Part shown: positions 1,085 to 8,394 of the stretch, one piece after another | How positions within the stretch are numbered: position 1 is the stretch's first letter | Layout of the letters: every line of letters starts with the position of its first letter | Made by a program: the position numbers and the translations under genes | The notes under the pieces: generated by a model | Told to the model about the DNA's origin: nothing | The model's input: the letters and a program-made list of their open reading frames with translations, nothing else | Databases searched by the model: none | Source: Pseudomonas sp. RSB 5.4 | Lineage (GTDB): Bacteria > Pseudomonadota > Gammaproteobacteria > Pseudomonadales > Pseudomonadaceae | Length of the DNA: 64,000 nt | Direction: 5' to 3' | NCBI RefSeq assembly: GCF_037126175.1 | Contig: NZ_CP146986.1 | Coordinates: forward strand, 5,952,501 to 6,016,500

Positions 1085-1316
1085 GAGGAGCTGCCGCATT
1101 CGTTACCACACGAATGGGTGACAGCTGTACGCAGGGTGGTAAACCGGGAGAGCAAAGAAACCGGCAGACCCGAAGGTCTCCCACGCACAGCCGCCATGAC
1201 TCGGAATTGCAGACGTAAAAACACCTGAGTCGTGTTGGGAGCGTTGTTGCACTTTGCTTAGCCGGGTTACCACACCCGATCACTGAATTGGTCAGCGACC
1301 TCTGGAGAGTATCCCG
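1085..1316 (-). promoter_or_regulatory. Candidate structured leader upstream of DUF3077 gene
   Basis: About 230 bases upstream of the DUF3077 start contain two hairpins with the same 8-base loop (TGTGGTAA on the minus strand) but different stems: CATTCG/CGAATG at 1097-1116 and CGGG/CCCG at 1263-1278. Between them, the minus strand carries TTACCAC at 1136-1142, complementary to seven loop bases of both hairpins. There is also a small GACC-TTCG-GGTC hairpin and an ACAGCTGT palindrome. The conserved loop on differing stems, plus a central complement, suggests a folded RNA rather than a protein. I cannot name a known RNA family for it. Confidence 0.45.
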
Positions 1317-1567
1317 TCGAAAAAAAGCGCAACAGAGCGGCAAAGTGCCCAAACACGAGATTAGGAGTTTGCCTACAAGGTATGCGGACGTCATCTGATA
1401 TTGCGACTCCGGTAACCGGAATTAAGGTGGCGAGCAATCTCGGGGGCGGTGGATTCTCGAGTTGGCGCCACAGGAGGGGGCCGTATAAAGGGCTTGACGA
1501 TCGGATATTTTGAATGAGACAAGTGTCCACGTTTTATGGAATGTGGACGAGTGGAGTTTTAAGCTTC

Positions 1568-2335
1568 ATGAAGAGTCAAGACATTTTGCTTTTGTTCAAG
1601 ATGACCAGCCTTCACGCTCAGGAGGAAAACCTCCTTGGGGTAATGGAGTCGGAGTCAAATTCGAACAGAGTCGAGGAGTTGTTGAAGCCCTACGTGGTCA
1701 GTCAAATGACGGCGGGCGGTCGGGTGGGGCAACCATTGGTCACCTACTCCACCGACGGTGTAGATACTGTATTCCGCCGACAGGATTTCGATTCGCCCTT
1801 GGACGATGAGGCGGGGTGGGAAGGGTGGTCGGAGCCGGTAGCTGTTCCGCCACTGGCGAGCTGGAGTGAAGGTTACTCGTTGCGTGCGTTGTCTGCTTCA
1901 CTTGGGCTAAGCAAGAGCGAAGTTTCAAATTCCATCGCCAGGTGTCGTGTGTCCGGGCTGCTCACCAATGACTATGACACCGGACTTCCAAAAGTTAACC
2001 GGCGGCAGTTACTAAACATCACCGAGCACGCTCTGAAATACTTTTTCCCTGTAAAGCCCGGGGCAATGGTTCGCGGCATCCCGACGGGTTTTGCAGCACC
2101 GGCACTGTCCAAAAGTATCAAAAGTGCTGGCGGACTGATTCCGGTTTGGCCAGATGCACTTGGAGCGGAGCGTGGACAGGCGATAGAGCCGCTCTACAAG
2201 ACAGTGCCGGAAGCGGTGAAGCGGGACAGGACCCTTTACCACTATCTTGCGCTTGCTGATGCAATCCGCCTTGGAGGTCCGCGAGAGTGTGGTGTTGCGG
2301 TCGACATTCTAAAAGCAGGGATGGGACTGAAATAA
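1568..2335 (+). CDS. Winged-helix DNA-binding protein, putative antitoxin/regulator of NTase operon
   Basis: This 255-residue protein opens with the K-S-Q-D-I-L motif and has a helix-turn-helix at about residues 103-132 (YSLRALSASLGLSKSEVSNS). Its C-terminal part (NRRQLL, YFFP, RGIPTGFAAP, EPLYKTVPEAVKRD, LYHYLALADAIRLG) matches in form a widespread wHTH family encoded beside nucleotidyltransferase genes. About 65 residues between the opening motif and the HTH look like an insertion. The ATG at 1568 follows GGAG at 1553-1556. It lies one base before the next gene, so the two are surely cotranscribed. By analogy with AbiEi it may repress its own operon or restrain the NTase; that is inference. 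The DNA looks less GC-rich than its neighbours, hinting at transfer. Confidence 0.75.
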   Translation: MKSQDILLLFKMTSLHAQEENLLGVMESESNSNRVEELLKPYVVSQMTAGGRVGQPLVTYSTDGVDTVFRRQDFDSPLDDEAGWEGWSEPVAVPPLASWSEGYSLRALSASLGLSKSEVSNSIARCRVSGLLTNDYDTGLPKVNRRQLLNITEHALKYFFPVKPGAMVRGIPTGFAAPALSKSIKSAGGLIPVWPDALGAERGQAIEPLYKTVPEAVKRDRTLYHYLALADAIRLGGPRECGVAVDILKAGMGLK

Positions 2336-2336
2336 C

Positions 2337-3035
2337 ATGTCATCCAACGCTGATCACAACTACGAGCTTATAGAGTTTGTTGCTGAGGGTTTGGGAGAGG
2401 CGTTTCTCGCGGAGGTTGCCTTTGTCGGAGGTTGCACCACAGCCATGCTGGTAACTGATGCTGTTGTGCTGGACGACATTCGCTTCACCGATGATGTTGA
2501 CCTGGTGATCGAGCTAGCAGGCATTGGCGCCTGGCAGCAGCTTACCGAACGGTTGGCGGCCAGGAATTTCAAGATTACTGGCGAGGATGAAGTGAACTGT
2601 CGTTTCCGCTTCAACGACATCGTCGTTGACGTGATGCCTTCTGATCCCGAGGTTCTCGGATATGCCAACCGCTGGTTTGTAGAGGGGCTGGCGCGGGCCA
2701 ATAAATTTACGTTGCCCAGCGGTACCGTCATCCAGATATTCAAACCGACCTATTTTCTCGCGACAAAACTGGAAGCTTTCAGTGGTCGTGGCGGTGGCGA
2801 TCCATACCATAAAGACGTCGAAGACATCATTATCTTGATTGATGGACGTCCAGAGCTTTTAGAAGAGGTTCGGCAGGCGGAATCCGAGCTCAAAGAATTC
2901 ATCACGAATGGAGTTCGAGCACTCAGGGTTCTCAGTGGCATTGACTATGTGATTGAAAGCTCGGGCTCGGTACAGGCCAATCCGGGAAGAGGGCAAATCA
3001 TTCATGGGCGCATGAAAGAACTGGGCAGCGCATGA
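2337..3035 (+). CDS. Nucleotidyltransferase-fold protein, AbiEii/MNT-like
   Basis: The 232-residue product shows the polymerase-beta nucleotidyltransferase pattern. GG at 31-32 is followed by R49-x-T51-D52-D53-V-D55, and a third carboxylate is likely D98 in VVDVM. A later block, K144-L-E-A-F-x-x-R151 with K159-D160-x-x-D163, is typical of AbiEii/MenA-type toxins and minimal NTases. Such proteins transfer nucleotides to tRNA or protein targets. All expected acidic residues are present, so it is probably active. It starts 2 bases after the winged-helix gene and overlaps the phosphatase gene by 4 bases (ATGA), so the three are translationally coupled. The actual substrate is unknown. Confidence 0.75.
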   Translation: MSSNADHNYELIEFVAEGLGEAFLAEVAFVGGCTTAMLVTDAVVLDDIRFTDDVDLVIELAGIGAWQQLTERLAARNFKITGEDEVNCRFRFNDIVVDVMPSDPEVLGYANRWFVEGLARANKFTLPSGTVIQIFKPTYFLATKLEAFSGRGGGDPYHKDVEDIIILIDGRPELLEEVRQAESELKEFITNGVRALRVLSGIDYVIESSGSVQANPGRGQIIHGRMKELGSA

Positions 3036-3703
3036 AATACCACGTCAGATCGGTAGCAGGGCGAGCCAGGAGAACCAACCATGACTTTGCTGGAGCGCTC
3101 TGTGATGGAGAAAACGGCGTATTTGTTATCACGGACGGTACATCGAGGGTTGGCAGTGGCCAGTTGGCTGAGTCCTTTGTGAAAGATGTTTTAGAGGTCT
3201 GGTCAAAACACTTTGATCACGGCCTCGATATTCCTGAGTGCGAAGCTGTTGAACAGGTACTGCTTTCTATACTGGCCGACCTCCACCCCGTTTTGTTTGC
3301 AAGTCACACAGGCGCCACTTGTTATGTGGTGGGTGTCGCTGCTCATGGGAAACTCACGCTTGCGTATGAGGGTGATTGTTCGTGCGGTGTTGTGACGCCA
3401 GCAGGAGCGATCGAATGGATTACGTCGCCCCACTGTAAGGCTAACTGGAGGCGCGACCGTTCCCACTCCGAGCTGGCGCAAGATCCGGCTCGAAACCGGG
3501 TGACTCGATGCTTGAAGGCGAGTCGCGCACCGAACCCTGACTTTGTGTTTCATTCATTGACCCTAAGAGAACGACTGGTATTTGCAACCGATGGCTTTTG
3601 GGCGGAGCTAACCGAGTTACAGCAAAGCTACTTGCTAGCAGCGCCGGATGGCAGCTGTATCGATGTAGAAGATGACATCACGTGGATAGATGTTCAGCTT
3701 TAG
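3032..3703 (+). CDS. PP2C-like serine/threonine phosphatase
   Basis: The 223-residue protein has the PP2C metal-binding skeleton: N16-x-D18 near the start, ITDG (D35), EGDC (D114), FATDGFW (D186) and DDIT (D213-D214) near the end. These correspond to the acidic residues that hold two Mn/Mg ions in PP2C enzymes. It is a free-standing minimal domain without membrane segments or sensor domain. As third gene of the wHTH-NTase operon it could remove phosphate or nucleotide from the target, or from its partners. PP2C enzymes also occur in tellurium- and defence-type loci with kinases, but no kinase gene is visible here. Function in this operon is inference. Confidence 0.75.
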   Translation: MKYHVRSVAGRARRTNHDFAGALCDGENGVFVITDGTSRVGSGQLAESFVKDVLEVWSKHFDHGLDIPECEAVEQVLLSILADLHPVLFASHTGATCYVVGVAAHGKLTLAYEGDCSCGVVTPAGAIEWITSPHCKANWRRDRSHSELAQDPARNRVTRCLKASRAPNPDFVFHSLTLRERLVFATDGFWAELTELQQSYLLAAPDGSCIDVEDDITWIDVQL

Positions 3704-3756
3704 TCTCGGTATCGATAGAAGTTTCGACTGGCAGGAAGTGCTGCAAGTTTGCGTAA

Positions 3757-3792
3757 AAAAGCCCCCGCAACCGTGAGGTTGCGGGGGCTTTT
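3757..3792. terminator. Bidirectional rho-independent terminator
   Basis: A 16-bp perfect stem (AAAAGCCCCCGCAACC / GGTTGCGGGGGCTTTT) with loop GTGA lies between the convergent phosphatase and hydrolase genes. A/T runs on both sides allow it to serve both strands. Confidence 0.95.
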
Positions 3793-3809
3793 CGTTGGAG
3801 CGCTTCAGA

Positions 3810-5102
3810 TCACTCTGTCGGCTGATCCTTGCTCTGACGCTTCTCGATCAGGTCCACCAGACGCTTGGCCAGCGCCGGGTAGTTCTCGTCGAAGTGGTGG
3901 CCGCCGGGCAGTTTCACCGCTTCGCCGACTGCCGTCTTGTCGGTGCAGCCGCTTTCGTCGGTTTCTTCGGCGCCGTAGATGCACACTACTTTGGCCGCTG
4001 GCAGCTTGGCCATTTCCGGGCCGGTGGCGGCTTCTTTGCCGGCGTTGCCGAGCCAGCCTTCGACTTCGATTTCGAAGCTGCCGGTGCGGGCGAAGGCCAG
4101 CAGGATGATGGCGTCTACGCGCTGCTGCTCGGTGTCCGGCAGGCGGTTGTAGATCGCCGGCAGGACGTCGGCACCGAACGAGTAACCGGTCAGGATGAAG
4201 CGCTTGGTGCCCCATTTCTGGCGGTAGTGCTGCATCAGTTCGGTCAGGTCCAGGGCGCTTTGCTCCGGGCTCTTGTGCTGCCAGTAGTAGCGCAGGGTGT
4301 CGATGCCGACCACCGGGTAGCCAATCTTGGCCATCTCGCCGGCCACATCGCGGTCGAGGTCGCGCCAGCCGCCATCACCGGAAAGGAACAGGGTCACGGT
4401 GTCCTTGGCCTGACCGGCCGGCACTTCAACCACCGGGATCGCCAGACCGCCGTTGGCCTTGTCGCCGCCGACGAGGATCTTGCGCAGCTCGTTGTTCAGC
4501 ACTTGCGGCAGGTTGATGTCGTAGTCGCTGATGCTGGTCTCGGCGTTCGGTTGATCGCGCACGAAACCGGCGCTGGTGTCGTCCGGGTTGTCGTTCCACG
4601 CCACCAGCCAATGGCCGTGGGCCGCGGATTTCGGCAGCAGGTGGGTGCAGCCGGGTTTTTCCAGGGCCAGGTCAACCGAGATGGCCTGGGCCTTGTCGTC
4701 CTTCTGCTCGGACAACCAGCGCCAGGCCAGTACGGCGCCCGGGCCGATACCGCTGACCAGCGTGGCCGGGCCATTCAGTTCGCGCAGGCCGGTTTGCAGC
4801 GCGCGGCTCTGTTGCAGGCAGTCCTTGGGCAGAATCACCTGAACGATTTGCGCCGAGGCGCTGCGGCTCAGGGTGCTCAGTTGGTTGTCGGTCAGCTTCT
4901 GGTCGTCATTGACCGCTACCAGCACCTGAGCCTTGGGCTGGGTGCCGGGAACGACGCGGGTCATGACCGTGCCGTCGGCGGCAGTCAGCGGTTGCAGAGT
5001 CGGTTGCGGTGCCGGGCGTTTGAGGTACCAGTAACCGCCGCCGGCAATCACGGCCAGCACGATCAGTGCGGCCAGGATGTACTTCAGGGAGCGTTGAATC
5101 AT
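3810..5102 (-). CDS. AcvB/VirJ-family periplasmic hydrolase (aminoacyl-phosphatidylglycerol hydrolase)
   Basis: The 430-residue alpha/beta-hydrolase has an N-terminal membrane segment (about residues 8-27) that exports or anchors it in the periplasm. The nucleophile elbow GYSFG has its serine at about 308, and the late GGHHFDE supplies the histidine near 398. The VirJ-type motif SGDGGWRDLD is at about 241-250. Its start overlaps the stop of mprF by one base (TGATG), so the two are cotranscribed. In P. aeruginosa the matching pair makes and then hydrolyses alanyl-phosphatidylglycerol; the same push-pull role is inferred here. Confidence 0.88.
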   Translation of the reverse strand: MIQRSLKYILAALIVLAVIAGGGYWYLKRPAPQPTLQPLTAADGTVMTRVVPGTQPKAQVLVAVNDDQKLTDNQLSTLSRSASAQIVQVILPKDCLQQSRALQTGLRELNGPATLVSGIGPGAVLAWRWLSEQKDDKAQAISVDLALEKPGCTHLLPKSAAHGHWLVAWNDNPDDTSAGFVRDQPNAETSISDYDINLPQVLNNELRKILVGGDKANGGLAIPVVEVPAGQAKDTVTLFLSGDGGWRDLDRDVAGEMAKIGYPVVGIDTLRYYWQHKSPEQSALDLTELMQHYRQKWGTKRFILTGYSFGADVLPAIYNRLPDTEQQRVDAIILLAFARTGSFEIEVEGWLGNAGKEAATGPEMAKLPAAKVVCIYGAEETDESGCTDKTAVGEAVKLPGGHHFDENYPALAKRLVDLIEKRQSKDQPTE

Positions 5103-7741
5103 CAGCGTTTCACCAATCCAGTCAAGCCGCCCGCGATCAGGGCAGCAGTATCGGCCAGCGCCACCAGCGGATCGAGTCCGGCGGGCACTGCCATATAACG
5201 GGGTTCCCAGTCAGGCTGGAACTTGTCTTTGAAGCGGCGCAAGCCTTGGAAGTTGTACAGCTGCTCACCACGGCGGAAGACCATCGAGCCCAGACGCTGG
5301 GTCAGCGGTGCGCCACGCCGGGGTTGCAACCCCGACAACGGCACCATGCCCAGGCTGAAGCGCGCGTATCCGTGACTCTTATAGTGTTGAATCAAACCGA
5401 CCATCAGGAATTCCATGGTCAGCTTGGGGGCGTCCGGGTGCGAGCGCATCAGATCGAGACTGGCCAGGTCATGGCTGTAAGTTTCGAGCAGGTTGGCGAA
5501 CGCCACCGGGCGGCCTTCGAAGCGAATCACCGCAATGCGGAAATGCTTCAGGTAATCGTCGCTGAATCGACCGAGGGAGAAACCTTTCTCGCGCACGTTC
5601 TTGCCGGTCAGCCACGCATCGGAAATCACTTTCAACTCGTCCATCGGCGCCTGGCCCGGCTCGTGGATTTCCAGCGACAGGCCGTCGCGGGTCCCACGGT
5701 TCCAGGTGTAGCGCAGGTCCTTCATCTCCTTGCCCTTGGCTTCCAGGTCAAAGCGATGCAGATCGACCCGGGCTTCTTCGCCGAGCTTGATCGCGGTCAG
5801 GCCGATGTCCATGTAGTACGGCAGGTTCTCGGCACGTACCTGATAGAACACCGGACGGGTGTGATGGATGTCGCACAGGTCGCGGAACTGCCAGATCATT
5901 TCGGCACGCTGCTGGCCGGGGCCGATCGGGTCGTACAGCGCCACGAGGCTGCGGCCACGGCGGGCGTACATCAGGAACGCCTCGTCGTTGGGGTGAAACA
6001 GCAGTGCCTTGTCACCGGTCAGTGCCAGGCCGCCATCGGGTTGCGACGAGGCCATGAGGATCTTCGAGGCGCGTTCCAGTTCATCCGGTGTCGGCAGGTG
6101 AATCACCGGGCGCGCGGTGCGCAGCAGCCAGGTCAGGGCGATCACCAGCAACAGTACGGCAGCACCGAGCAGCGAGCGCAGGCCGCGCGGCGCGTCAGCG
6201 TCGAGGGTGAACTGCCACCACAGTTGATGGCTGTAAGGCACGTCCTGATAGGCGAACAGCAGCAGCCAGGTCGAAGCCCCCAGCACGCAGAGGCTGGCCA
6301 CCAGATACAGCGGCGAGAACGGTAGCTCGGTCAGGCGGCTCGGACGATAGAACGAACGGCGGAACACCCCCAGCAACGCAGCGGTGAGTGTCATCAGCGT
6401 GGCTTCTTCCCAGTCGAAGCCTTTGAGCAGCGAGAGCAGGGCGCCGACCAGCAACAGAATGGTGGTCAGCATCCACGCGGCAGACAGCCGACGACGCAGG
6501 CCCTGGGCGAGCAACAGGCACAGCACGCCGATCAGACTGGCGCCGAAGTGCGAGGCGTCGACCAGACGATGCGGGATCAGAAAACCGATGTGTTCGAGAC
6601 GGGTGTCGATCTCCGGGGTCGCGCCGGAAAACAGCAGCACCACGCCGGACAGGAACACCAGCACCGCCAGAATGGGCGCCGCCAGACCGGACGCAGCGCG
6701 CATGGTCTGGGTCTGAAACAGGCGCTGGCCTTCGTTGATCAGCAAGAACAGGCAGGCCACCAGCAGCGGCAGCACGACATAGATCAGGCGGTAGAGCAGC
6801 AGGGCGGCGGCCAGTGGCGCGGCACCGAGTGTGTCGGCGAACGCGGCGAGCAGGATCGCCTCGAAGACCCCGACACCCCCCGGCACATGGCTGAGCACGC
6901 CGGCGGCCAGGGCCAGCAGGTACACCAGCAGGAAGGCGCCGAACGGCGGGGCTTCCGGCAGCAGCAGGTAAAGCACGGTGGCTGCTGCGGCGACGTCGAG
7001 GGCGGTGATGATCAATTGCAGGAAGGTCAGGCGGCGGCCCGGCAGGCGCAACGTCCGGCGCCCAGCCCTGACCAACAGGTTATCGCGGTACGGTTGCTCC
7101 GGCAGGCGCCGGCGGTAGATGCCGATCGCCAGAATCGCGCCCAGACCCAGCACCACCATGGCAATCGTGCCAAGCAGGCCCTCTGACAGGCCCAGGGCGG
7201 CGGAAGCGGAAGGCAGGTCGCTGAGGGTCGCGAGAGCCGCCAGCGGTGGCAGGGCGCAGCCCAGCGACAGGCTGGCGAACAGCGTCATGTGGGCGACTTC
7301 TGATGCTCCCAGACCATGACGTGCATATAAACGGTAGCGCACCGAGCCGCCGGACAGCAGCGACAGGCCAATGGCGTTGCCAATTGCAAACGCAGTGAAG
7401 CCGCCCAGCGCCAGCGTGCGCGGTGGCAGCGTCACGCCGGCATAGCGGCTGGCTGACCATTCATAGCCCAGCAATATAATGAAGCCGATCACCGTCGCAC
7501 CCAATGCCCCGAGCAGAGCAGGTTTCGGCACGGCCAGGATCGAGTCATGCAGCGCGTAGAGATCGAGTTCGCTCAGCAGATGGCGACAGGCAATCAGCGC
7601 AATGGCAAACAACAGCAACGTGACCGCCAGACCGATAGGCTGGCGGTATTTGCTCAAACGATCCAGCAAGCGCAGGCGCTCGGGCTTGATCGGATGGTCT
7701 GCTGTGACGGTGTCTTGTGGATCAGACGAGTTGGCGCGCAT
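5102..7741 (-). CDS. mprF: Bifunctional phosphatidylglycerol flippase/aminoacyl-tRNA transferase MprF
   Basis: The 879-residue protein has the classical MprF layout. An N-terminal flippase with many hydrophobic helices covers about residues 30-545. A cytoplasmic GNAT-like synthase domain covers about 550-879 (WQFRDLCD, YTWNRGTRDG, FAQDYLK-like and LSLGMVPLSG regions). It transfers an amino acid from aminoacyl-tRNA to phosphatidylglycerol and flips the product, lowering membrane negative charge and raising resistance to cationic peptides. Whether alanine or lysine is used cannot be read from sequence; P. aeruginosa uses alanine. The ATG at 7741 follows GAGGTG. A TTG directly before it is a possible but less likely start. 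Confidence 0.93.
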   Translation of the reverse strand: MRANSSDPQDTVTADHPIKPERLRLLDRLSKYRQPIGLAVTLLLFAIALIACRHLLSELDLYALHDSILAVPKPALLGALGATVIGFIILLGYEWSASRYAGVTLPPRTLALGGFTAFAIGNAIGLSLLSGGSVRYRLYARHGLGASEVAHMTLFASLSLGCALPPLAALATLSDLPSASAALGLSEGLLGTIAMVVLGLGAILAIGIYRRRLPEQPYRDNLLVRAGRRTLRLPGRRLTFLQLIITALDVAAAATVLYLLLPEAPPFGAFLLVYLLALAAGVLSHVPGGVGVFEAILLAAFADTLGAAPLAAALLLYRLIYVVLPLLVACLFLLINEGQRLFQTQTMRAASGLAAPILAVLVFLSGVVLLFSGATPEIDTRLEHIGFLIPHRLVDASHFGASLIGVLCLLLAQGLRRRLSAAWMLTTILLLVGALLSLLKGFDWEEATLMTLTAALLGVFRRSFYRPSRLTELPFSPLYLVASLCVLGASTWLLLFAYQDVPYSHQLWWQFTLDADAPRGLRSLLGAAVLLLVIALTWLLRTARPVIHLPTPDELERASKILMASSQPDGGLALTGDKALLFHPNDEAFLMYARRGRSLVALYDPIGPGQQRAEMIWQFRDLCDIHHTRPVFYQVRAENLPYYMDIGLTAIKLGEEARVDLHRFDLEAKGKEMKDLRYTWNRGTRDGLSLEIHEPGQAPMDELKVISDAWLTGKNVREKGFSLGRFSDDYLKHFRIAVIRFEGRPVAFANLLETYSHDLASLDLMRSHPDAPKLTMEFLMVGLIQHYKSHGYARFSLGMVPLSGLQPRRGAPLTQRLGSMVFRRGEQLYNFQGLRRFKDKFQPDWEPRYMAVPAGLDPLVALADTAALIAGGLTGLVKR

Positions 7742-7982
7742 CAATCACCTCTTGGATTGTGCGCGACAGGATGGAGGTATCCAGCCAAGTTACCAATCCC
7801 TGTAGAAAAAAATAATCACAAAATACTACGCCTCTCATCGGGTATCGGCGAGGGCGGGTCATGGATTGCAGACGTCTTGCCTGCGACTCAAGCATAGTCG
7901 CAACTCGGCGGGTCTGACGATCCTGAGTGTTTCACTGCAGCGTGACAGATCATTGTTGCGAAAGGACTTTTTCCACAGATAC

Positions 7983-8020: not shown

Positions 8021-8097
<77 letters not shown>

Positions 8098-8317: not shown

Positions 8318-8394
<77 letters not shown>

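Follow-up and report, generated by a model that had tools for sequence, protein, structure and literature searches.

What does a protein phosphatase do beside a nucleotidyltransferase (NTase) and a winged helix-turn-helix (wHTH) protein? The question is raised by three genes, here called A, B and C, near the start of a 64,000-nucleotide stretch of Pseudomonas sp. RSB 5.4 (contig NZ_CP146986.1, positions 5,952,501 to 6,016,500; hereafter the window), whose genome is a single contig of 6.24 Mb. The genes form one tight operon on the + strand, with spacings of +1 (A/B) and −4 (B/C), as an earlier reading made from the sequence alone (the sequence-only reading) had described and as the gene coordinates bear out.

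1568-2335, + strand: gene A, 255 residues, wHTH protein PDC-M21A, presumed autorepressor and antitoxin
2337-3035, + strand: gene B, 232 residues, MenT-like nucleotidyltransferase PDC-M21B, presumed toxin, with T51 as presumed phospho-acceptor
3032-3703, + strand: gene C, 223 residues, PP2C-type phosphatase PDC-M21C

The three proteins match the PADLOC-DB 2.0.0 models PDC-M21A, PDC-M21B and PDC-M21C with E values of 1.1e-79, 1.1e-91 and 5.5e-59, near full length, the genes being adjacent and in the same order (models PDLC04515-PDLC04519). Judged by these matches the trio is a member of PDC-M21, a PADLOC candidate defence system, anti-phage activity being only a candidate label. The arrangement with a PP2C, which the sequence-only reading did not recognise, is thus already catalogued, because all three proteins match models of one candidate system. 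In the open-licence PubMed Central (PMC) papers the name PDC-M21 does not occur, none of the titles and abstract openings listed describes a wHTH-NTase-PP2C trio, and the PADLOC web-server paper does not contain the term 'PDC'. As far as could be found, the system is catalogued but undescribed, and what is new here is a proposed mechanism, a variant of the NTase toxin-antitoxins. We tentatively read PDC-M21, at somewhat under an even chance, as a MenT-like NTase toxin-antitoxin whose toxin is silenced by phosphorylation of its active site and re-armed by its own phosphatase.

Nucleotidyltransferase B, regulator A and the proposed cycle

B displays the motifs GG 31-32, R49-x-T51-x-D53-x-D55, D98, K144-x-x-A147, R151 and D160-x-x-D163, and every listed residue is invariant in 109/109 aligned B proteins, the window's included, which confirms the full NTase motif set reported by the sequence-only reading (the 109-row counts stem from an earlier set than the 123-locus count given below). 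Model comparison reveals a MenT-type NTase fold in B. The best structural match is MenT1, including its T39-phosphorylated form, and T51, a threonine in all 109 rows, aligns with the R-F-T motif of MenT1. B lies under the Pfam AbiEii cut-off (PF08843, DUF1814; 15.8 vs 22.5 bits), as does its relative in locus L124 (21.0 vs 22.5), and displays a remote profile kinship to AbiEii (hhalign 52%, E 1.4e-4). Its assignment as an NTase of MenT/AbiEii type is supported by computation. The AbiE-type pair suggested at the outset therefore survives as an NTase of this type with a wHTH partner, not as AbiE itself: B is below the AbiEii cut-off, A shows no profile kinship to AbiEi and MenT1 is closer.

Protein A weakly matches MarR_2 (Pfam, E 0.028) and, among PDB profiles, wHTH regulators (E 8.5e-4), matches that are consistent with one another and weakly suggest a wHTH protein. 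The predicted local distance difference test score (pLDDT) of its model reaches about 77-89 at residues 101-150 and falls below 50 in an insert at about residues 22-90, which carries a W-E-G-W motif at 84-87. A second in-frame ATG for A is found at 1514; the relatives, however, have the MKSQD start in common. Two features precede the gene.

1524-1549, no strand: palindromic operator TGTCCAC...GTGGAC, presumably bound by A, with a dyad conserved in front of the gene
1494-1499, + strand: TTGACG, possible −35 element read from the sequence, weak and without a good −10

The dyad upstream of A retains at least 10/13 pairs in 90/132 loci vs 1.2% of 2640 shuffles, with the general form TGTCC-N4-TCC-NN-GGA-N4-GGACA, and two-gene relatives display the same layout in other letters (TATTC-N4-TTC-GC-GAA-N4-GAATA in L138). 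Given this conserved palindrome, A very probably represses its own operon in a large part of the family. The repression of the operon by the wHTH protein put forward in the sequence-only reading thus finds an autorepressor-like pattern across the family, the window's own operator being a poorer example with 9/13 dyad pairs. TTGAC occurs at about the same distance before A in most of the upstream stretches displayed, and a consensus promoter scan of 1100-3850 found no sigma-70-like site. In L195, L210, L212 and L228 A looks intact and B is broken, the asymmetry expected of an antitoxin and its toxin; the searches began from B, so that A-only loci lie outside all counts given here.

For MenT1 and, by model, MenT3, PMC11375011 describes autophosphorylation at an active-site Thr/Ser that is induced by MenA and blocks nucleotide transfer, and states that T39 of MenT1 matters for full activity. 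In the cycle proposed for PDC-M21, A would repress the operon via the conserved palindrome at 1524-1549 and would neutralise B, most likely in the manner of MenA, B autophosphorylating T51 so that nucleotide transfer is blocked. From the MenT homology and the conserved Thr we infer a type VII-like covalent inactivation of B. C, as the cognate PP2C, would take the phosphate off T51 and re-arm B, and in some members of the family the flexible, Trp-bearing insert of A probably keeps it close to A-B, as suggested by co-variation. A trigger, which might be a phage infection or the breakdown of a restriction system nearby, would shift the balance to dephosphorylated B, which, if it resembles MenT1 and MenT3 in its target, would add nucleotides to tRNA 3' ends and stop translation.

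Phosphatase C and the insert of A

The acidic residues of PP2C are kept in C, as the sequence-only reading had noticed: D35, D115 and D187 in 76/76 proteins, D214 in 75/76 and D18 in 74/76 (two gaps). We take these aspartates to be metal-binding, in line with their individual roles in PP2C. C matches NCBIfam Stp1 PP2C at E 1.3e-10, under the cut-off (41 vs 230 bits), and in PDB the tPphA-like 6ihl (E 1.4e-4). In the Pfam scan the window's C has no match, while three of four C relatives pass a PP2C cut-off (L243 and L118 PP2C_2; L247 PP2C) and L031 fails.

The constancy of the partners was counted over 123 distinct loci with full-length B, leaving out 13 partial-B loci, L087 (a partial B without A) and L088, the one full-length B lacking A, which is a piece of the window itself that ends short of A. 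A is present in 123/123. The slot after B is occupied by PP2C in 63 loci, by a PP2C fragment in 3, by a calcineurin-type metallophosphoesterase in 3 (L134, L135 and L156; PF00149 for L135) and by neither in 54. Among 31 loci from genome contigs, A was adjacent in 31/31 and C in 28/31, a grouping that, with the purifying selection and the correlated distances given below, exceeds chance. Fewer than 700 readable bases remain in 5 of the 54 loci (L133, L193, L183, L187 and L175), where C could merely have fallen outside the sequence. A strict partnership of C is rejected: A+B is the core and C a lineage-limited add-on, because 54/123 AB loci have no recognised phosphatase in the slot. Co-conservation of the three families, by which the sequence-only reading proposed to judge its module, accordingly extends to A throughout and to a PP2C or its fragment in 66/123 only. 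In L131 the slot holds a gene for a 1696-residue protein, and A there retains the long insert.

Presence of C goes together with the insert of A. Between its N-terminal motif and its HTH, A spans 58-120 residues in 65/66 loci with C and 32 in L122, whereas among the loci without PP2C, 42/57 of which are measurable, the distance is 25-40 residues in 38 and 62-71 in L018, L053, L131 and L132, where the insert outlives C. Similarly, the W.[GD]W motif of A occurs in 61/66 loci with C vs 4/57 without; the Fisher p of 9e-24 for this association takes no account of ancestry and is not relied on here. In the tree all C fall inside one clade of 78 rows (Shimodaira-Hasegawa-like approximate likelihood ratio 85, not starred), with 7 changes in all, at least 4 of them forced by well-supported branches. 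Inside the clade, L022/L023, L124/L126/L224/L225, L197 and L133 lack C as well as the insert, the L133 stretch ending 474 bases after B. An independent-pairs test found 4 pairs, the insert differing the same way in 2.4, the opposite way in 0.1 and not at all in 1.5. For some members of the family, the insert may serve as a site at which C docks. Plasmid loci were counted separately, on fifteen stretches picked for diversity out of 116 records with a match; C is found on 12 of the 15, one split by a frameshift. On a Bradyrhizobium plasmid (L245, 4686-5434) an unannotated PP2C gene after B is split over two frames.

The same co-variation could also arise if C acted on A. A host or infection-linked kinase would then phosphorylate the insert of A and weaken repression or neutralisation, and C would reset A, a safety catch and not a trigger. 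The predicted disorder of the insert (pLDDT <50 at residues 22-90) fits this explanation, kinase and docking targets being often disordered. Against it, no kinase gene belongs to the module in the loci inspected, the sequence of the insert varies and agrees most clearly in the W motif, and in L122 and a number of plasmid copies C occurs together with a short linker. Action of C on A is considered unlikely.

Neighbourhood, spread and weighing of the readings

PADLOC models were run at E <= 1e-10 on 100 neighbour proteins of 20 loci and on 119 proteins of 20 control stretches from the same genomes, and 304 families were matched in the neighbours vs 38 in the controls. Type I methyltransferase models match up to 8 neighbour proteins, the control families 2 at most. 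Genes of hsd type lie near AB in 20/138 loci, many of which offer only a 1.5 kb flank, vs 0/32 control stretches; in the matched sets they were found in 9/20 vs 0/20 (Fisher p 0.0012, some loci being kin of each other). The module is embedded between hsdR and hsdM on one strand with C in L118, L120, L170, L214 and L215 and without C in L053, L124, L126, L224 and L225, and by the tree these ten loci are two lineages. Neighbours on plasmids include a TIR protein (L247), a TrlF-family ATPase (L246), AbiEi (L244) and AbiGi (L245), with integrases in L244, L249, L250 and L252. In its widest form, the proposal is of a phosphatase-armed toxin-antitoxin in which the wHTH protein parks a phospho-Thr NTase, PP2C (in a few lineages perhaps a calcineurin-type enzyme) re-arms it and the hsdR/hsdM copies guard in the manner of PrrC; as a whole this is possible, although doubtful.

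With the B model, matches at E <= 0.001 were obtained in 47/298 Pseudomonas genomes, 26/194 relatives, 34/390 of the order, 41/369 of the class and 33/398 of the phylum, in samples that overlap and include fragments and weak matches, some of the latter being perhaps AbiEii-like proteins; one of 14 control genomes (Corynebacterium glutamicum) also matches. Relatives of B are present on 116/72,556 plasmid records, 46 of them typed conjugative and 25 mobilizable, and none was detected in 50,697 phage records. The one IMG/VR match is a contig end (L228, 7130-8550) with an intact-looking A, 30 residues of B and the same DUF3077 and convergent-gene neighbours as the window's copy, probably bacterial and not viral DNA. 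A phage-borne origin is not supported, given the empty phage records and the apparently chromosomal neighbours of L228.

This spread bears on a module without any toxin, in which the substrate of B would be a small molecule or house-keeping target and the operon would serve metabolic or stress regulation. Such a regulator sits poorly with the patchy presence in Pseudomonas and on the 116 plasmid records, with the abundance of restriction genes among neighbours elsewhere and with the ranking of MenT1 and MenT3 over ANT enzymes in the structural matches of B, and is judged less likely still than action of C on A. The least likely is that C, or the calcineurin-type enzyme of the slot, is a second antidote that removes the nucleotide added by B, or its phosphate, from the target: B and C are co-inherited (the distance matrices of A, B and C correlate with r 0.97 over 51 loci, common ancestry included) and calcineurin-type enzymes can be phosphodiesterases, but it is A rather than C that accompanies B throughout, and PP2C enzymes are Ser/Thr phosphomonoesterases that are not known to act on tRNA ends.

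Several observations count against re-arming of a phosphorylated B by C. The 54 AB loci lacking a recognised phosphatase would, if functional, operate without one in the slot, and loci without C also keep T51. Conservation of T51 does not prove phosphorylation, because plain NTases of this class would be expected to have the Thr too. The calcineurin-type alternative is confined to 3 loci, and a 54% relative in L230 (G292) has no A or B beside it, which weakens this enzyme as an exclusive alternative. L122 alone displays the reverse association, C without insert, and among the 12 plasmid loci with C the W motif was seen by eye in only 4. The independent-pairs test has too few pairs for significance (median p 0.5) and reflects few independent events, so that co-variation of C and insert as independent evolution is not shown. 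The model of A is poor overall (pLDDT 56), and its sequence profile compared with 11 AbiEi-position proteins gives an hhalign probability of 0.8. Finally, no defence genes are found among the neighbours at hand of the window's own copy; the defence-gene enrichment that the sequence-only reading proposed to look for thus holds for copies elsewhere, near hsd and on plasmids, and not for this one.

Surroundings of the operon and comparison with known systems

The following features flank the operon.

3757-3792, no strand: hairpin of an intrinsic terminator, flanked on either side by A and T tracts, fold z −5.03 for 3704-3800
740-1051, − strand: DUF3077 gene (E 9e-28), which also precedes the operon in most close relatives
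1-561, − strand: end of an ISL3-family element (also L296 2294-3499), with a full-length 401-residue transposase open reading frame just upstream of the window

The hairpin, which a simple terminator scan did not list, is common to the operon and the convergent gene 3810-5102 and substantiates the strong terminator predicted after C. The operon lies between the DUF3077 gene and this convergent gene in 13/14 close relatives, that of L008 lying elsewhere. Of 12 genomes picked for the convergent gene, L159 and L162 have both flanks without the operon, and the alignment of L162 runs on to about window 1586, beyond the first bases of A, as a deletion would leave it. The ISL3 end assumed at the outset is real and incidental, because 13/14 relatives carry the operon here too and their common stretch with the window starts at about 594-759, past the insertion sequence, which is rejected as a carrier. 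The GC content is 0.50-0.56 over the operon; the lower GC previously ascribed to it is true on one side only, against 0.61-0.71 in 3751-7750, because upstream (1-1500) it is 0.53-0.58.

All three genes are under purifying selection. The ratio of non-synonymous to synonymous substitution over 14 relatives is 0.17-0.26 for C, whereas A does not exceed 0.12, apart from 0.25 in the near-identical L001, and B does not exceed 0.09, C thus evolving faster than A and B. A long inverted repeat at 622-740, rich in GAGCGAGCTTGCTCGC, occurs at other places in relatives too and resembles Pseudomonas REP elements. Two tRNA-Met genes (anticodon cat; 8021-8097 and 8318-8394, − strand) lie about 220 bp apart in partly repeated DNA.

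The interest of the operon lies in making a published question testable, the fold not being new. PMC7205606 postulates a phosphatase that re-activates a phosphorylation-silenced NTase toxin, not yet identified; the TglT authors argue there that some phosphatase must do so and describe mycobacterial PstP as slow and unspecific. C may be this missing re-arming enzyme for phosphorylation-silenced bacterial toxins, and a MenT1-like NTase with a matching Thr and its own Ser/Thr phosphatase reduces the question to three proteins of an environmental Pseudomonas. If the proposal is true, neutralisation would be reversible without degradation of the antitoxin, adding a reversible layer to toxin-antitoxin control. 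With the hsdR-[AB(C)]-hsdM layout a further idea becomes testable, the guarding of type I restriction.

PrrC resembles PDC-M21 in layout only: in the 10 loci of two lineages, a module whose toxin presumably targets tRNA is placed between hsdR and hsdM. According to PMC2610378, the linked type I enzyme keeps PrrC silent and an anti-restriction factor from phage activates it; PrrC is an unrelated enzyme, and most PDC-M21 copies, the window's included, lie outside hsd operons. AbiE shares the two-gene order of wHTH and NTase and the remote profile kinship of B, and PMC7319586 describes autoregulation of S. agalactiae AbiEi through inverted repeats. In contrast, B has Thr where 12/12 aligned AbiEii have Ser and stays below the AbiEii cut-off, and A is not detectably AbiEi by sequence profile. 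The likeness to MenAT1 and MenAT3 comprises the NTase fold and the GG, R-x-S/T-x-D-x-D, K and D motifs of B, as well as the Thr at the MenT1 phospho-site and an antitoxin gene in the same operon. Identity of B to these toxins is about 10-18% in structural alignments, A is a putative wHTH protein whereas MenA1 is small and helical, and, while the word phosphatase is nowhere in PMC11375011, the PDC-M21 operon encodes a phosphatase of its own.
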